A stretch of 64,000 nt of DNA from Shinella zoogloeoides. GTDB taxonomy: Bacteria; Pseudomonadota; Alphaproteobacteria; Rhizobiales; Rhizobiaceae. The translations under genes were made by a program, and so were the position numbers. Below, in pieces: positions 3,021 through 10,150 of the stretch. The DNA lies in assembly GCF_022682305.1 (NCBI RefSeq), contig NZ_CP093528.1, forward strand, positions 4,084,501-4,148,500, read 5' to 3'. The notes beneath the pieces are model-generated. The model saw nothing but the letters and a program-made list of their open reading frames with translations. It was not told the origin of the DNA and made no database searches. Positions within the stretch are counted from its first letter, which is position 1; each line of letters starts with the position of its first letter.

Positions 3021-4049
3021 ATGCGGTTCCTATCCGGGACGGGGCTTTTCCGGCTGGCGGCGGCCGTGGCAGCGATCGCGCTTCCCCTTGAAGCCGGTGC
3101 GGCCGGCCTCAAGGGCGTCAACCTGGCCGGGGCTGAATTCGGCGAGGGGCGCGGTGTCTACGGCAAGGATTACATTTATCCCTCGGCCGAAACGATCGGC
3201 TATTTCGCCGGCAAGGGCTTCAATGCCGTGCGCCTTCCCTTCAAGTGGGAGCGGCTGCAGCCGCGGCTGAACCGCGGCTTCGACAAGGCCGAGCGCACGC
3301 GCCTTGCCGAAACGGTCAAGGCGCTGCGCCGGGCCGGCATGACCGTCATCCTCGATCCGCACAATTACGCCTATTACGACAAGAAGCAGCTTGGAGCCGA
3401 GGGCGGGGTGCCGGATAGCGCCTTTGCCGATTTCTGGCGGCGGCTCGCCGAGGACTACAAGGGTGACGCCGGCGTGCAGTTCGGCCTGATGAACGAGCCG
3501 CACGATGTGCCGGCGGAGCAATGGCTCGCCTCCGCCAATGCCGCCATCGCGGTGATCCGCAAGACGGGCGCGAAGAACCTCGTCCTCGTGCCGGGCACGC
3601 TCTGGACGGGTGCGCATAGCTGGGAAGAGGAGCGGGAAGGCGGCGCCAACGCCACTGTCATGCTCGGCATCGAGGACCCGGCGAACAACCATGCCTATGA
3701 AGTGCATCAGTATCTTGACGCGGACTTCTCCGGCACGGCCAGGACCTGTGAGCGCGCGGACGATGCGGTGAAAGCGCTGGAGCGGTTCACCGACTGGCTG
3801 AAGCGCAACGGCCAGCGCGGCTTCCTCGGCGAATTCGGCGGTTCGTCAGATCCGGCCTGCCTCGACGGACTTGCCCGCATGACGGCGCTCGTCGACAGGG
3901 AGAACGCGGTCTGGACCGGCTGGACCTACTGGGCAGCGGGCGACTGGTGGCCGGCGGACGAACCGCTCAATATCCAGCCGACCGCCGATGGCGACCGGCC
4001 GCAACTGGCCGCGCTTGTCGCCGGCGGCGGGCTTTCCGCCAAGCCGTAA
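3021..4049 (+). CDS. Secreted glycoside hydrolase family 5 (cellulase/endoglucanase-like)
   Basis: A 342-residue exported (beta/alpha)8 glycosidase, probably acting on a beta-1,4-glucan. Residues 1-28 form a signal peptide with a hydrophobic core and an AxA-like end (LEAGAAG). The GH5 signature is clear: the acid/base is E159 in GLMNEPHD and the nucleophile is E271 in FLGEFGG. The aromatic residues of a GH5 cleft (W in WTGWTYWAAGDWW) follow. A CGGAGG ribosome site precedes the ATG at 3021. It follows polA closely and could be read through from it. In rhizobia such enzymes can trim the cell's own cellulose or plant glucan, but the substrate cannot be read from sequence. It lies about 330 bases before the carrier-protein operon, so a link to that operon is only positional. 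Confidence 0.9.
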   Translation: MRFLSGTGLFRLAAAVAAIALPLEAGAAGLKGVNLAGAEFGEGRGVYGKDYIYPSAETIGYFAGKGFNAVRLPFKWERLQPRLNRGFDKAERTRLAETVKALRRAGMTVILDPHNYAYYDKKQLGAEGGVPDSAFADFWRRLAEDYKGDAGVQFGLMNEPHDVPAEQWLASANAAIAVIRKTGAKNLVLVPGTLWTGAHSWEEEREGGANATVMLGIEDPANNHAYEVHQYLDADFSGTARTCERADDAVKALERFTDWLKRNGQRGFLGEFGGSSDPACLDGLARMTALVDRENAVWTGWTYWAAGDWWPADEPLNIQPTADGDRPQLAALVAGGGLSAKP

Positions 4050-4381
4050 GCCTCCCCCGGCCCGGCCCGAAGAGGTGTTTTTGCGCGCCGGACCGCTTTT
4101 CCACTGCGCTTTCATTCTATGGATAACGAAGCCTGAATCCTCCGGGTCCGTATCGTTATGGAACGGCGACCGTAGCGTGCAATCCCCGGGAAAACCGGAC
4201 GTGCTCAACTTTCCTTCATGAAGGGCCGGACGCGCGCGTTTCAGGGCGATGCAGTTTTCCCGGCGGCTTCACGAAATCTTATCCATGTCCCTTCAGGTGA
4301 TCTTATACAGCGAGGGCTATGCCTGTCGGGAATGATGAACAGGCCAGCTTTCCGGCTGCAAAGAAAGCGATGGAGAAGAAC
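4050..4381. promoter_or_regulatory. Intergenic region upstream of the carrier-protein operon
   Basis: A 332-base stretch without a convincing gene. The short reading frames here lack ribosome sites and family similarity. It presumably contains the promoter of the five-gene operon. Just before the operon, a nine-base direct repeat (ATCTTAT followed by A/C and C) starts at 4276 and again at 4300, 24 bases apart. No clear sigma-70 or EcfG promoter could be assigned. Confidence 0.4.
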
Positions 4382-4636
4382 ATGAAGCAGAAGATCCGTG
4401 ACATTCTGGGCAAGCACGGCGGTCTCCCGGTGCCGGTCGACACGCTTTCGGACGATGCCGATCTCTATGCGGCCGGTCTTTCCTCCTTTGCTTCCGTGCA
4501 GGTGATGCTCGGCATCGAGGAGGCCTTCGACGTCGAATTCCCGGACAGCCTGCTCAATCGCAAGTCGTTCCAGAGCGTCGATGCCATTGCACGGGCGGTC
4601 GCAAGCCTCGTCGGCAATGCGGAGGCCGCCGAATGA
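4382..4636 (+). CDS. Acyl/aminoacyl carrier protein of the aa:CP ligase system
   Basis: An 84-residue phosphopantetheine carrier protein. The expected attachment serine is S35 in AAGLSSFASVQ, where the usual DSL is replaced by SSF, a form I associate with carrier proteins paired with amino acid:[carrier protein] ligases. The ATG at 4382 is chosen because GGAGAAG lies just upstream and the length fits the family. In-frame ATGs at 4319 and 4370 would add 21 or 4 unusual residues. Its stop overlaps the next ATG by four bases (ATGA), which indicates tight translational coupling with the flavoprotein. By analogy with the Bradyrhizobium and Agrobacterium proteins (Mocibob et al. 2010), the downstream ligase should load its cofactor arm with a small amino acid. 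It is unlikely to be the housekeeping fatty-acid AcpP, whose motif and neighbours differ. Confidence 0.88.
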   Translation: MKQKIRDILGKHGGLPVPVDTLSDDADLYAAGLSSFASVQVMLGIEEAFDVEFPDSLLNRKSFQSVDAIARAVASLVGNAEAAE

Positions 4637-5805
4637 CCCTCACCGTCGGTTCCAGCCTCGTCGAGCGTGCCGAGCGCGTTTCCGCCGTGGCTGCTGCGCA
4701 TGCCGACGACGTGGACGTCAAGGGCCGCTTCCCGCGGGAAGCGGTCGATGCGATGATCGCCGAGCGACTGCTGTCGATCCAGATTCCCGCTGCCCTCGGC
4801 GGCGAAGGTTGTTCCCTTTCCGAGATCGCCGAGGTCTGTTCGCTACTCGGCCAGGGCTGCTCGGCCGCGGCCATGATCTTCGCCATGCACCATATCAAGC
4901 TGTCCAGCCTCGTCACGCACGGGCAGGAGAGCGCCTGGCACGCCGCTTTCATGCGCCGCGTCGCGGACGGACAGCTCCTGCTCGGCTCGGCGACGACCGA
5001 GGGCGGCATCGGCGGCAACCTGCGCAACAGCATCTGCGCCATCGAGGTCGAGGGCGACACCTGCCGCCTGACCAAGGATGCGACGGTCATCTCCTACGGG
5101 GCCGAGGCCGACGCGATCCTCATCACCTCGAGAGCCCATGCGGACGCAGCCTCGACCGACCAGGTCATGACGGTCTTCACCAAGGACCAGTACACGCTGG
5201 AGCGCACCCATGTGTGGGACACGCTCGGCATGCGCGGCACCTGCTCGGACGGCTGGCTCTTCAAGGGCGAGGCGCCGAAGGCGCAGATCTTCCCGAAGCC
5301 CTTCGCCGAGATCGCCGCCCAGTCGATGCTCGCCACCTCGCATCTGCTTTGGAGCGCGGTGTGGTACGGTATCGCGGTCAACGCGGTTTCCCGCGCGCAG
5401 GCCTTCGTGCGCGCCGCGGCCCGCAAAAGCCCGGGCGTCACGCCGCCCGGTGCGCTGCGCCTCGCCGAAGCCTCGAACCTCCTCCAGCTCCTGAAATCGA
5501 ACACGATCGCGGGCCTGCGGGAATACGAGGTGGCCAAGGCCGATCCGGACCGGCTCTCCTCCATGGGCTTTGCGGTTGCGATGAACAACGTGAAGATCGC
5601 CTCCTCCGAGACGATCCTGGTCATCATCAACCAGGCCATGCTGATCTGCGGCATCATGGGCTACAAGAACGGCACGCCCTACAGCCTCGGCCGGCACCTG
5701 CGCGATGCGCATTCCGCCCAGCTCATGATTTCAAACGACCGTATCCTCGGCAACACCTCGAACCTCCTGCTCGTTCACAAGCAGGACACCAGCCTGATCG
5801 GGTGA
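4633..5805 (+). CDS. Acyl-CoA dehydrogenase-fold flavoprotein
   Basis: A 390-residue protein with the acyl-CoA dehydrogenase layout: N-terminal helices about 1-115, beta barrel about 120-225 ([12 protein letters not shown] matches the FAD/substrate region), and C-terminal helical bundle to the end. It overlaps the carrier-protein stop by four bases and ends four bases before the ligase, so it belongs to that operon. Likely role by inference: oxidation of an aminoacyl or acyl group held on the carrier protein, as PltE-type enzymes do with prolyl-carrier proteins. One oddity: the position where most family members have the catalytic glutamate (YEG-T) reads [10 protein letters not shown] here, so that glutamate is missing. 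The enzyme may use another base, or act as an oxidase or monooxygenase. The substrate is unknown. Confidence 0.85.
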
Positions 5806-5809
5806 CACT

Positions 5810-6724
5810 ATGGACATGCAGACCTCCCTTCTCGACCGGCTCTTCGATACGGGCCTCCTCATCGATACGGGCGTCGAGGGCCTTTACGGCCGCAGCGGCG
5901 CCTTCGAGGACGTCATCGCCCGCTTCGAGCGGCTGATCGACGCCTATGGCGGCGACGATGGCGCAGAAGCCATGCGTTTCCCGCCGGGCATGAACCGCGC
6001 GCATTTCGAATCCTCCGGCTACATGAAGAGCTTCCCGCAGCTTGCCGGCACCGTGCACAGTTTCTGCGGCGGCGAGCTGGATCATATGAGCCTTCTGCAG
6101 TGCATGGAGGTCGGTGGCGACTGGACGAAGGACCAGAAGGCGACGGAGATCGTGCTGACGCCGGCGGCCTGCTATCCGCTCTATCCGACCATCGCCAGGC
6201 GCGGCCGCCTGCCGATGAAGGGCGGTCTCTACGATCTCCAGTCCTACTGCTTCCGCCACGAGCCCTCCAACGACCCGGCGCGCCAGCAGCTCTTCCGCAT
6301 GCGCGAATATGTCTGCATGGGCACGCAGGAGCACGTCACGACCTTCCGCCAGACCTGGATGGATCGTGGCCTTGAAATGATGGCCAAGGTCGGCCTCGAC
6401 GTGACGATGGATGTGGCGAACGACCCGTTCTTCGGCCGCGCCGGCCGCATGCTCGCCAACAACCAGCGCGACCAGAACCTGAAGTTCGAGCTGCTCATTC
6501 CGGTGACGTCCGCCGCCAAGCCGACGGCCTGCATGAGCTTCAACTACCATCAGGATGCCTTCGGCGCGAAATGGGGTCTGAACCTCGAAAACGGCGACGT
6601 CGCGCACACCGCCTGCGTCGGCTTCGGCCTGGAGCGCATCGCGCTGGCGCTCTTCGCCCGCCATGGCCTCGATATCGCGGCCTGGCCGGCGGATGTCCGC
6701 AAGGTGCTGGGATACCAGGACTGA
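5810..6724 (+). CDS. Amino acid:[carrier protein] ligase (class II aaRS homologue)
   Basis: A 304-residue seryl-tRNA-synthetase-like catalytic core without a tRNA-binding arm. This is the hallmark of enzymes that adenylate a small amino acid and transfer it to a carrier protein instead of tRNA. Motif 2 is [20 protein letters not shown] and motif 3 is [16 protein letters not shown]. The zinc ligands known from the Bradyrhizobium enzyme (Cys131, Glu176, Cys279) correspond to Cys121 in TPAACYP, Glu166 in MREYVCMG and Cys269 in HTACVGFG, each shifted by exactly ten residues. The carrier-protein substrate is encoded two genes upstream. Characterised homologues prefer glycine or alanine; specificity here is inferred from similarity. 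It sits in the middle of the operon, four bases after the flavoprotein. Confidence 0.93.
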
Positions 6725-6725
6725 C

Positions 6726-7694
6726 ATGGCCGCCGTCTTCGCCGGGGCCGTTCCCGAGAGCTACCGGCCGCACGCGCTTCACGATCCCGAACGCATGTGG
6801 CCGGAGACGAACTGCTATGTCGATCTCTGGATCGAGGTGCTGAACGCCTTCGGCGCCGCCCCCGAGGCGATGCTCGGCTTCTCGCTGACGCAGGATTTCG
6901 AGGGCGACCAGTTCACCTTCTTCAAGGTGCCGCTGGAAGACCTCGAAACGCTCTATGGCATCCGCTGCACCGAGCTTGCCATCTTCGACCGGGTGGAGGA
7001 CCACGTCGCGACCCAGATCGCGCGCGGCCGCCTGTGCCTTCTCGAGATGGACAGCTTCTACATGCCCGACACCCGCGGCGTCGCCTACGGCCAGGAGCAT
7101 GGCAAGACGACCATCGCCATCAACCGGCTCGATCTTGCGAACAAGCGGCTCGACTATTTCCACAATGCCGGTTTCTTTCGGCTGGAAGGCGAGGATTTCG
7201 ACGGCTTGTTCCACCTGAACGACGGCCCGGGGGATCTGCCCTTCCTACCCTATACGGAATTCGCCAAATTCCCGGCAAGCCGGCCGGACGAGGCGCATCT
7301 GCGCCGTGAGGCGAGCCGCCTCGCCGCTTTCCATTTCGCCCGTCGCCCGGCTGAAAACCCGGTTGCGGCCTTTGCCGCGGTCTTCCCGAAGCAGGTCGAG
7401 GCCGTGGCGGACCGTCCCTTCGGCTTCTTCCACAAATACGCCTTCAACACGCTGCGCCAGCTCGGGGCCAATTTCGAGCTGGCCGGCAGCCATCTCGACT
7501 GGCTCGCGCCGGACGGAAGCCTCTCCGAGGCCGCCGACGCCGCGCGAAAAATTTCCGAGACGGCGAAGTCCGTGCAGTTCCAGCTTGCCCGCGCGGTGAC
7601 GCGCCGCAGGTTCGATCCGCTGGCCACGGCGCTCGATCCGGCCGCCGAGGCATGGGACAGGCTGATGGCGACGCTCGCCGCGCGCCTCGGCTGA
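6726..7694 (+). CDS. DUF1839 protein, candidate carrier-protein acyltransferase
   Basis: A 322-residue protein of the DUF1839 family that accompanies aa:CP ligases. Its function is not established to my knowledge. The ATG at 6726 starts one base after the ligase stop; an in-frame ATG at 6663 would overlap the ligase and encodes an unrelated N-terminus. The N-terminal half reads like the BtrH N-terminal family: Cys30 in ETNCYVDLW, then LNAFGAAPEAMLGF, a D-x-F-Y-x-P segment (MDSFYMPDT), His125 in YGQEHGKTTIAI and Asp143 in KRLDYFHNAGFF. This order suits a papain-like Cys-His-Asp triad. BtrH moves an acyl group from a carrier protein to an aminoglycoside, so I infer transfer of the aminoacyl group to an acceptor. 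No membrane segment or signal peptide is visible. The family call is firm; the transferase idea needs testing. Confidence 0.82.
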   Translation: MAAVFAGAVPESYRPHALHDPERMWPETNCYVDLWIEVLNAFGAAPEAMLGFSLTQDFEGDQFTFFKVPLEDLETLYGIRCTELAIFDRVEDHVATQIARGRLCLLEMDSFYMPDTRGVAYGQEHGKTTIAINRLDLANKRLDYFHNAGFFRLEGEDFDGLFHLNDGPGDLPFLPYTEFAKFPASRPDEAHLRREASRLAAFHFARRPAENPVAAFAAVFPKQVEAVADRPFGFFHKYAFNTLRQLGANFELAGSHLDWLAPDGSLSEAADAARKISETAKSVQFQLARAVTRRRFDPLATALDPAAEAWDRLMATLAARLG

Positions 7695-7705
7695 AGGAGG
7701 TGGGG

Positions 7706-10150
7706 GTGTCTTCGACCGGAAAAGCGCTCTCGGACGGCTGGCGCATGATCCTGACGCCGGCCGGTGCCGTCACCGGGCCGGCAGGGCTTGAAACCTTTTC
7801 CGATTCTGTCGACGCTCCCGTACCCGGCACGGTCGCCGGGGCGCTGGAGCGCGCCGGCCGCTTCGACCGGACGGCGCCCGAGCCGCTCGATCATCTCGAT
7901 GCCTGGTATGTGCTGGACCTGGAGGGCGAGAGGCCCGGCGAGGCCGTCCTGCATTTCGACGGGCTTGCGACCGTCGCGGAGGTCTGGTGGAACGGTGCGC
8001 TGCTGCTTTCCTCCGACAGCATGTTCGTCCGCCACGATCTGCCCGTCACGCTCACGGGCGAAGACCGGCTTGCTCTCTGCTTCCGCGCGCTGAAACCGCA
8101 TCTGGAAAAGCGTGGCCCGCGCGCCCGCTGGCGGCCGCAGATGATCACGCCGCAGGGCCTGCGCCTCGTGCGCACCACGCTGCTCGGCCGCATGCCGGGC
8201 TGGTGCCCGGAGGTTCACGCTGCCGGTCCCTGGCGGCCTGTCCGTCTTTCGCGGTGCGGGTCGGCATGGCCCGCCGATATCCGCATCGCTGCCCGACTGG
8301 AAGAAGACGGTGCGGGCCGTCTCGATGTCCGCTTCGGTTTCGAAGGTGAAGCGCCGACCGTGGAATGCGCCGGTGTGACCGCCGTGGCCGTGCCCGAGGG
8401 AGAGGGCCGGTTCAGTGCGCGCCTTTCCATCCCGGATGTCGAGGCATGGTGGCCGCGAACGCATGGCAATCCCGCCCTGCACGATGTTTTCCTGACCCTG
8501 AATGGCGAGCGCCGGAGGATCGGCCGCACCGGCTTCCGCCGCATCGGGATCGACCGTGGCGCGGATGGCCGGGATTTCGCCCTTCGCGTCAATGGCGTGA
8601 CGGTCTTCTGCCGTGGCGCGGTCTGGACCAGTGCGGACATCGTCGATCTTCCCGGCAGCCGCGCGCATTATGAGCCGCTGTTGCGGCTGGTGGCGGACGC
8701 CAACATGAACATGCTGCGCATCGGCGGCACCATGGCCTACGAGACGCCGGATTTTTTCGCGTTGTGCGACGAACTGGGCTTGATGGTCTGGCAGGATTTC
8801 CAATTCGCCAATTTCGATTATCCGGCTAATGATCCGGCTTTTGTCGATAATGTGCGTCGCGAGGCGAGCCAGTTTCTCGATGCGACGATTGCCTCGCCGT
8901 CGCTGGCTATCCTGTGCGGCGGCAGCGAAATCGACCAGCAGGCGGCGATGCTCGGCCTGCCGGAAGCCGCTCGGGCCGGCCCGCTTACCCGCGAGATCCT
9001 GCCGGAAATCGCCGCCGCGCACCGGCCGGACGCGCCCTATGTGGAGAATTCGCCGAGCGGCGGGGCGATGCCTTTCTCGCCAAACGCCGGCGTGACGCAC
9101 TATTACGGCGTCGGGGCCTATTGCCGGCCGCTGGAGGATGCGCGCAGGGCAGAGGTTCGCTTTGCCGCCGAGAGCCTCGCCTTCGCCAACGTGCCGGAGC
9201 AGCAGACCCTCGAGGCGCATCTGCCGGTGCCGGCGGTGCATGATCCACGCTGGAAGGCCCGCGTGCCGCGCGACCGCGGGGCGTCCTGGGATTTCGAGGA
9301 TGTGCGCGAGCACTATCTCGCCCTCCTCTACGGTGAGGACCCGGTCCGCCTGCGCCGCGAGGACCCGGCCCGCTATCTCGATCTTTCCCGCGCCGCGGTC
9401 GGCGAGGTGATGGAGGCGACCTTCGCGGAATGGCGGCGGCCGCAATCCACCTGCAACGGCGCGCTGGTCTGGACTTTCCAGGACCTTTTGCCCGGCCCCG
9501 GCTGGGGCGTGGTCGATGCGACGGGCCTGCCGAAATCCGCCTGGCACGCGCTGCGCCGCGCTTTCCGTCCGGTACAGGTCATCCTGTCCGACGAGGGCAC
9601 CAACGGGCTGGATATCCACGCCGTCAACGACAGTGCGCACGAACGGCGGCTGACACTGGAACTCGCCTGCCTGCGCCACGGCCGCCAGCCGGTCGTCTCC
9701 GGCCGCAAGGACATGATCCTTGCGCCCCATTCGGCCGGGACGCTACCGGCGACCGATCTCTTCGGCGCGTTCTTCGATACGACCTATGCCTTCCGCTTCG
9801 GTCCGCCTTCCCATGACGTGACCGTCTGCCGGCTGCTCGATGCGGAGGGAGTGGTGATCGCGGAAGCCTTCCATTTCCCGCAGGGGCGGGCGAAGGCCAT
9901 CCATTCCGCCGTGCTTTCCGCGGCGCTGCGGCAGGATGGGGGGGAGTGGCTGCTGGATCTTTCGGCGGATCGCGTCGTGCAGTCCGTGGCGATCGAGGCC
10001 GAAGGTTTCCTGCCGTCCGATAGCTGGTTCCATCTTGCGCCGGGCGGCGTGAGGAGCGTGCGCCTCGTGCCCCGCGCGGGCATCGATCCGGCTGCAAGGC
10101 CGGCCGGCATGGTTCGCGGCCTCGGCGCGGAGGCCGTCCTCTCGTTCTGA
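7706..10150 (+). CDS. Glycoside hydrolase family 2, beta-mannosidase-like
   Basis: An 814-residue protein with the GH2 order: a jelly-roll sugar-binding domain (about 1-170), an immunoglobulin-like domain, a TIM barrel (about 280-560) and C-terminal beta domains. Beta-mannosidase traits include GWCPEVHAAGPWRPV, MLRIGGTMAYETPDFF and VWQDFQFANFDYP. The probable acid/base is E408 in CGGSEIDQQ and the probable nucleophile E489 in FAAESLAF, though the usual NGNNE and SEFG motifs are altered. The start is a GTG at 7706, placed because AAGGAGG overlaps the DUF1839 stop and ends five bases before it. There is no signal peptide, so it should be cytoplasmic. As last gene of the carrier-protein operon it implies a glycoside substrate or acceptor in that pathway. 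The changed motifs leave open altered specificity. Confidence 0.87.
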   Translation: MSSTGKALSDGWRMILTPAGAVTGPAGLETFSDSVDAPVPGTVAGALERAGRFDRTAPEPLDHLDAWYVLDLEGERPGEAVLHFDGLATVAEVWWNGALLLSSDSMFVRHDLPVTLTGEDRLALCFRALKPHLEKRGPRARWRPQMITPQGLRLVRTTLLGRMPGWCPEVHAAGPWRPVRLSRCGSAWPADIRIAARLEEDGAGRLDVRFGFEGEAPTVECAGVTAVAVPEGEGRFSARLSIPDVEAWWPRTHGNPALHDVFLTLNGERRRIGRTGFRRIGIDRGADGRDFALRVNGVTVFCRGAVWTSADIVDLPGSRAHYEPLLRLVADANMNMLRIGGTMAYETPDFFALCDELGLMVWQDFQFANFDYPANDPAFVDNVRREASQFLDATIASPSLAILCGGSEIDQQAAMLGLPEAARAGPLTREILPEIAAAHRPDAPYVENSPSGGAMPFSPNAGVTHYYGVGAYCRPLEDARRAEVRFAAESLAFANVPEQQTLEAHLPVPAVHDPRWKARVPRDRGASWDFEDVREHYLALLYGEDPVRLRREDPARYLDLSRAAVGEVMEATFAEWRRPQSTCNGALVWTFQDLLPGPGWGVVDATGLPKSAWHALRRAFRPVQVILSDEGTNGLDIHAVNDSAHERRLTLELACLRHGRQPVVSGRKDMILAPHSAGTLPATDLFGAFFDTTYAFRFGPPSHDVTVCRLLDAEGVVIAEAFHFPQGRAKAIHSAVLSAALRQDGGEWLLDLSADRVVQSVAIEAEGFLPSDSWFHLAPGGVRSVRLVPRAGIDPAARPAGMVRGLGAEAVLSF

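Follow-up and report, generated by a model that had tools for sequence, protein, structure and literature searches.

The window analysed here is a stretch of 64,000 nucleotides from Shinella zoogloeoides (contig NZ_CP093528.1, positions 4,084,501 to 4,148,500), in which positions 4382-10150 hold five intact open reading frames (ORFs), all on the + strand and joined by overlaps or gaps of 1-11 bases. The operon begins with a gene for a carrier protein (PRK07081; 4382..4636, with an alternative in-frame ATG possible at 4370), which contains the phosphopantetheine serine Ser35 and scores 34.3 bits against PP-binding and 120.2 bits against NF005480 (cut-off 72). This gene overlaps by 4 bases with that of a flavoprotein of the acyl-CoA dehydrogenase (ACAD) fold (4633..5805; N-domain 39.3 bits, cut-off 22.9; C-domain 23.1 bits, only just over its cut-off of 22.4). 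After a gap of 4 follows an amino acid:[carrier protein] ligase, the catalytic core of a class II aminoacyl-tRNA synthetase (aaRS) by homology (5810..6724; NF005479 508.9 bits, cut-off 357), and after a gap of 1 a DUF1839 protein (6726..7694; 452 bits), a predicted papain-fold, carrier-dependent amide synthetase acting through Cys30. The last gene, 11 bases farther on, has a GTG start and encodes a GH2 beta-mannosidase-like enzyme (7706..10150), of which the N-terminal domain alone passes the GH2 cut-off. An earlier reading made from the letters of the window (the sequence-only reading) had described five tightly packed genes of these families, and our family scans agree with it.

Results

The operon is kept as a unit across genomes. 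We searched 199 genomes of Rhizobiales (the order sample) together with 14 control genomes, and 398 genomes of Pseudomonadota (the phylum sample); the two samples overlap, having 6 DUF1839 positives and some negatives in common, and gene counts at loci are based on tblastn. DUF1839 was found in 26/199 order-sample genomes and in none of the 14 controls, and the order carrier-flavoprotein-ligase-DUF1839-GH2 is kept in all 26, that is, at the window and at the loci retrieved from the other 25 genomes. In the phylum sample DUF1839 occurs in 16/398 genomes, 10 of them new, and the five genes stand in the same order in 10/10, which brings the genomes with this arrangement to all 36 positives of the two samples combined. 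The ligase is over its cut-off in each of the 10 new positives and in 0/12 negatives checked, and the GH2 orthologue (>660 bits, with the next best match at 191) marks out the same 26 order-sample genomes as DUF1839, with 0/173 others having it. Among the named loci, which are the best 80 of 551 confirmed loci and mostly from Rhizobium, 79 show the full order. When compared over 36 loci, the pairwise distances of the five proteins are correlated with one another (r 0.72-0.90), as expected of genes inherited together. The sequence-only reading had let its case depend on co-occurrence of the five genes in other genomes, and by these counts they stay together.

The one named locus without the full order, L141 (a Rhizobium leguminosarum Vaf-46 contig), holds a 1.9-kb piece of the operon, from mid-ligase to early GH2. 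The remainder of this contig does not match L136, the operon-bearing locus of R. johnstonii 3841, which points to rearrangement or misassembly.

The ligase has a wider distribution than DUF1839, and two types of system can be told apart. It is over the cut-off in 36/199 order-sample genomes and in no control genome, a count that omits four sub-cut-off matches (G037, G104, G032 and G029), and the flavoprotein gene adjoins it in 36/36. Ten of the 36 form a Bradyrhizobium type, so named because the ligase of locus L077 is, judged by eye, closely like the solved Bll0957-type ligase; these genomes have no DUF1839, no GH2 orthologue >660 bits and no match at E 1e-25 to the two-domain hydrolase described below. 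The flavoprotein adjoining their ligases has 41-49% identity in all ten, and a carrier gene, divergent each time, is present in 8/10, with none beside the two ligases of L078 and L083. Ligase and flavoprotein are the constant pair, and DUF1839 and GH2 are gained jointly or not at all. The constancy of the pair suggests that the flavoprotein acts on the ligase product. Five of the Bradyrhizobium-type loci (L076, L079, L080, L084 and L085) have in common an AMP-binding ligase and a FabG-like short-chain dehydrogenase/reductase (the L076 copies were scanned), and some of them also share further unknown ORFs; this is perhaps a second use of the aminoacyl-carrier.

Residue conservation was read from alignments of subsets chosen for diversity (28 of 38 DUF1839 sequences, 33 of 46 flavoprotein loci, 33 of 48 ligases, 26 of 36 GH2 proteins and 29 of 43 carriers). 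The ligase profile matches 4h2w (E 9.8e-99) and Bll0957 (3mey, E 5.3e-94), and residues 8-303/304 of the ligase align to 4h2w 40-333, an aaRS core without the tRNA-binding domain. Cys121, Glu166 and Cys269 (Cys151, Glu196 and Cys299 of the 4h2w chain), which we take to be the zinc ligands, are present in 33/33 ligases, and the earlier statement that core and putative ligands are intact is thereby extended to the aligned family. Ser35 of the carrier is likewise invariant (29/29). Mocibob and colleagues reportedly described amino acid:[carrier protein] ligases of Bradyrhizobium and Agrobacterium in 2010 and 2013. The systems are alike in ligase family, in the three ligand residues, in the free-standing carrier and in the flavoprotein neighbour. 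Relatives of the ligase load Ala, Gly or Ser onto the carrier (PMC9437257, available in part), and such loading, established for them, would by analogy take place here. In Bradyrhizobium diazoefficiens bll0957 (the ligase) and bll0958 (the acd flavoprotein) stand side by side in a published table, both changed (value 3.0) in a phaR mutant at low oxygen (PMC10888616).

The predicted DUF1839 model (predicted local distance difference test, pLDDT, 93) has a papain-like fold with a helical C-terminal half, as in amide synthetases of the CcbD/CtaG type, and matches CcbD, CtaG and an AziU3/U2 chain over its full length. CtaG and AziU act in antibiotic pathways. The DUF1839 profile found nothing significant among the sequences of solved structures, and there was no match, even at E 10, to Pfam BtrH_N, the domain of BtrH, a papain-like acyl carrier protein:aminoglycoside acyltransferase. 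Identity of DUF1839 with the lincosamide synthetases CcbD/LmbD is 10-13%, against a likeness in full-length fold; CcbD uses a catalytic Cys to move an amino acid from its carrier to an amino sugar (PMC12945683, available in part). In DUF1839 the candidate for this role is Cys30, which lies at the start of a helix and is present in 26/28 aligned sequences; we infer from the fold and this near-invariance that it is the catalytic Cys. His125 and His146 are invariant, and Thr129 is found in 26/28.

Both exceptions to Cys30 are in-operon copies (L102:8435-9421 and L103:7901-8881) from two genomes that fall outside the order (genus g261 of family f109); these copies have Arg or Gln in its place and lack the KTT motif. 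Each of these genomes has a second, divergent DUF1839 (L101:88-1095 and L103:12732-13709) that keeps Cys30 and KTT and adjoins a gene for a GDP-mannose enzyme. The duplicates are a possible pseudo-enzyme/enzyme pair.

A sixth gene follows the operon through genomes even where it does not lie beside it. It encodes a two-domain alpha/beta hydrolase, in which homologues of the exosortase A-associated hydrolases 2 and 1 (TIGR03101 and TIGR03100) are fused; at 63.9 and 86.0 bits it is below the two curated cut-offs (203 and 168) and so a member of neither family. At E 1e-25 the hydrolase is found in exactly the same 26/199 order-sample genomes as DUF1839 (Fisher P 4e-33) and in 16/16 positives versus 1/382 negatives of the phylum sample (Fisher P 1e-27), where the P values ignore the relatedness of genomes and the samples overlap. 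The lone hydrolase-positive negative, G497, is without the ligase. Hydrolase and DUF1839 are within 10 kb of each other in 19 of the 26 genomes, about 16 kb apart in one, about 225 kb apart in one and on different contigs in five (drafts among them). The window genome is one of these five (hydrolase at G000:C2:393566-395290). Its copy, at 34-36% identity, could be an unrelated paralogue; it may also serve as the sixth gene, with the phyletic profile for this assignment and the low identity against it.

Polysaccharide genes recur in these neighbourhoods. Scans of proteins encoded next to the operon or the hydrolase turned up flippases, glycosyltransferases of families GT2 and GT4, a sugar transferase (Bac_transf) and a GDP-mannose enzyme. 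Of 8 loci retrieved around hydrolase copies that are unlinked or distant, 7 contain a gene for a flippase, for GH5 or for a WecG-type or Wzz-like protein, as judged by cluster membership with cluster representatives scanned (the Wzz-like cluster member of L195 has no Pfam hit itself); none of these four kinds is present at the eighth, L196. In the window genome the hydrolase is surrounded by a flippase, a Wzz/GNVR protein, glycosyltransferases and a sugar epimerase (L113 and L114; G000:C2:380001-415000). Farther along there are two proteins resembling those of exosortase systems, an amidotransferase, at 401 bits below the TIGR03108 cut-off (817) and over that of asparagine synthase, and an acyl-CoA ligase, which at 404 bits is below the TIGR03098 cut-off (592). 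The locus also has an 87-aa ORF positioned like a carrier gene and without a Pfam hit; no exosortase is found among the scanned proteins of L113/L114.

In an Agrobacterium (L203/L204) the five genes are followed by the hydrolase, an ABC exporter and, farther on, a UDP-sugar dehydrogenase and a glycosyltransferase. Counting ORFs from Atu2574, the DUF1839 gene (PMC2922099), places the exporter at Atu2577, the dehydrogenase at Atu2582 and the transferase at Atu2583. By this count the locus matches Atu2574-2583, and the functions agree with the tags given in PMC9790009 (both sources available in part). According to the latter, a so far uncharacterised glycan is the probable product of the cluster, and a yejABEF mutant benefits from insertions there; a 2019 paper reportedly found the cluster to be needed for phenazine tolerance.

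The GH2 family profile is nearest to beta-mannosidases (5n6u, 290 bits). Glu408 and Glu489, presumably the acid/base and nucleophile pair, are present in 26/26 aligned proteins; Glu489 aligns with a Glu of 5n6u, and opposite Glu408 the 5n6u chain has a Cys. The DWGP of 5n6u and the Trp of its RVWGG, which we take to be mannose-site motifs, are replaced by G(W/F)xP and R(V/I/L)(G/S/P/A)G. Glycan trimming, as proposed in the sequence-only reading, is possible with the conserved pair, but the enzyme has no signal peptide as judged by eye and its sugar-site residues are unlike those of 5n6u.

A GH5 enzyme is encoded upstream of the operon (3021..4049, + strand; Cellulase 183 bits), preceded by an ORF at 15-2993 that we take for polA, and a UPF0029 gene lies directly downstream. 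GH5 was rejected as a core member, being present in 8/26 operon-positive versus 8/173 operon-negative order-sample genomes (E 1e-20); it is associated with the operon by enrichment only. The nearest relatives among the best 80 loci are eight from Shinella (L115-L122), with DUF1839 identities of 82-91% and a polA homologue upstream in five. Their flanks vary: near the operon GT4 is present in four (L118, L120, L121 and L122), the hydrolase in three (L118, L120 and L122) and GH5 in five (L117, L118, L120, L121 and L122). The window and L117 both have GH5 and neither GT4 nor the hydrolase nearby.

Discussion

We hold, with somewhat more confidence than doubt, that the operon builds an amino-acid-derived acyl group which DUF1839 transfers as an amide to an amino sugar, either in a surface polysaccharide or in the precursor of one. 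The ligase would use ATP to activate a small amino acid and load it onto the pantetheine of the carrier. The flavoprotein would then oxidise the carrier-bound amino acid, with the amine (hydroxylation or imine formation) a somewhat likelier target than a C=C bond. Cys30 of DUF1839 would accept the acyl group and hand it to a sugar amino group as CcbD does, giving the amide; this step is suggested by the CcbD-like fold and the near-invariant Cys. The acceptor would be a surface or exported polysaccharide or its precursor, to which the loci of the hydrolase type point through phyletic profile and gene neighbourhood. The GH2 enzyme might trim or recycle a sugar precursor in the cytoplasm, and this is the weakest step. 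The order of activation, oxidation and transfer put forward in the sequence-only reading fits the apparently intact ligase and carrier, the constant flavoprotein neighbour and the amide-synthetase fold, all function being predicted. A bolder version, which we regard as possible though doubtful, is a tRNA-free, aaRS-derived pathway of Gram-negative bacteria, in which six co-inherited genes would amide-link an oxidised (N-hydroxy or imino) amino acid to an exported polysaccharide by means of a lincosamide-synthetase-like transferase with a rearranged triad.

The substrate of the flavoprotein would, from its place beside the ligase, be the aminoacyl-carrier. It models as an ACAD fold, and the usual dehydrogenase Glu is missing at both base positions in 33/33 flavoproteins: the place of residue 376 of medium-chain acyl-CoA dehydrogenase is Ile366 in all 33, and the helix-G place, position 236, is Ser in 22, Ala in 10 and Cys in 1 (both places, found by hand counting, are what we take to be the catalytic Glu sites). 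His237 is invariant, and the nitrososynthase DnmZ is the third-best solved match of the profile. The missing Glu weakly favours oxidation at nitrogen over C=C formation. Alternatively, the flavoprotein could make an alpha,beta-unsaturated (dehydro) aminoacyl-carrier with another base, for example His237 or Asp369, which we think rather improbable. Several observations nevertheless lean this way and away from the amine: the best family match and the two best solved sequence matches are dehydrogenases; the best of these, 7p98, has Thr at the first Glu place, so that absence of the Glu is not decisive; structure comparison with solved ACAD folds does not tell dehydrogenases from monooxygenases, Z scores to the two being equally high; and solved ACAD-fold enzymes work on carrier-bound amino acids (4irn, a prolyl-ACP dehydrogenase, and 7xp7, ColB1). 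Against a dehydro product stand the lack of Glu at either position and the equal retention of the flavoprotein with the Bradyrhizobium-type ligase, which presumably loads glycine, an amino acid without a beta carbon.

It is unlikely, to our mind, that the operon makes a soluble amino acid-amino sugar compound, similar to lincosamide or mycothiol, with GH2 processing or recycling the glycoside in the cytoplasm and with the polysaccharide context secondary. The apparent lack of a GH2 signal peptide together with the conserved Glu pair would fit this, and CcbD itself uses a small-molecule sugar (PMC12945683, available in part). The flanks also give reason for caution about a polysaccharide acceptor. 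In the window the operon neighbours are GH5 and UPF0029, with no glycosyltransferase or flippase adjoining; of the best 80 loci 22 show the five genes alone among the flank queries, which found the hydrolase near the operon in 54, GT4 in 43 and GH5 in 13; and the neighbourhoods point to no one acceptor. Further, the window-genome hydrolase is 36% identical to the copy of Shinella L118, whose DUF1839 is 88% identical, and may therefore be a diverged paralogue; for each genome no more than 6 hydrolase candidates were scored in the order sample and no more than 3 in the phylum sample; and the available part of PMC9790009 names Atu2577, 2582, 2583, 2590 and 2592, which do not belong to the five-gene operon. 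A soluble product is, on the other hand, hard to square with the place of the co-occurring hydrolase among polysaccharide genes at 7 of the 8 loci retrieved around unlinked or distant copies and with the flippase, glycosyltransferase and GH5 neighbours in other genomes.

Amide formation by DUF1839 has its own rival. As a papain-type hydrolase or peptidase, the protein could free the oxidised amino acid from the carrier or cut a glycan amide. The papain-like fold with its near-invariant Cys would suit such an enzyme as well, weaker Foldseek matches are to staphopains (E 8.5e-3), and a role in cell-wall glycan processing has been suggested from genomic context (PMC10318531). The same source models the DUF1839 triad as Cys-Thr/Ser-His, which differs from the Cys-His-Glu of CcbD and counts against a transfer like that of CcbD. 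Set beside the full-length match to amide synthetases, hydrolysis seems to us quite unlikely. Least probable by far is a role of the operon in supplying nonribosomal peptide synthesis, the first proposal made for the pair of ligase and carrier. The loading chemistry resembles that of an adenylation domain (PMC9437257, available in part), and two AMP-binding ligases near related loci match the amino-acid adenylation model below its cut-off of 317 bits (L114 264, L076 72.6). Against it, no multi-domain nonribosomal synthetase was named among the scanned selection of flank proteins and DUF1839 resembles a stand-alone amide synthetase.

Part of this pathway has been anticipated. A note in proof in Biology Direct in 2010 (PMC2922099, available in part) describes conserved neighbourhoods of a carrier, a redox enzyme, an unknown protein, a glycosidase and liposaccharide genes, and predicts that the aminoacyl group is monooxygenated and that Atu2574 amide-ligates an amino acid to a cell-surface sugar. 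The sequence-only reading knew of no established product; in a literature search with partial coverage we found no experimental study of the operon product either, but the conserved neighbourhood and the idea of amide ligation were already in print. That reading also did not have the two-domain hydrolase or the connection with polysaccharide loci. The genes of this predicted StRS-carrier-Atu2574 system are the same as those described here. In its available part the note assigns Atu2574 no fold, contains neither counts nor an unlinked sixth gene, and calls the redox enzyme a Rossmann fold, whereas we model it as an ACAD fold. The present analysis adds the CcbD/CtaG fold, counts for the co-occurrence with a sixth gene that is unlinked in some genomes, the distinction of two system types, the flavoprotein without its usual base and a connection to a glycan cluster for which a phenotype has been reported.

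A functional parallel is D-alanylation of teichoic acids by the Dlt system, in which a carrier-activated amino acid also decorates an envelope polymer. DltA has no relationship to class II aaRS, and membrane proteins carry out the transfer. The activating enzyme of the operon, unlike DltA, is homologous to class II aaRS, and none of the five proteins is of a Dlt kind (no search for DltB was made in the rest of the genome). A transferase fold with chemical precedent, a sixth gene and a glycan-cluster phenotype make the pathway testable. If true, the six-gene pathway would give Gram-negative bacteria a functional counterpart of teichoic-acid alanylation; amino-acid amides, perhaps oxidised, would join the decorations of rhizobial surface polysaccharides, with possible consequences for root attachment, redox stress and symbiosis.

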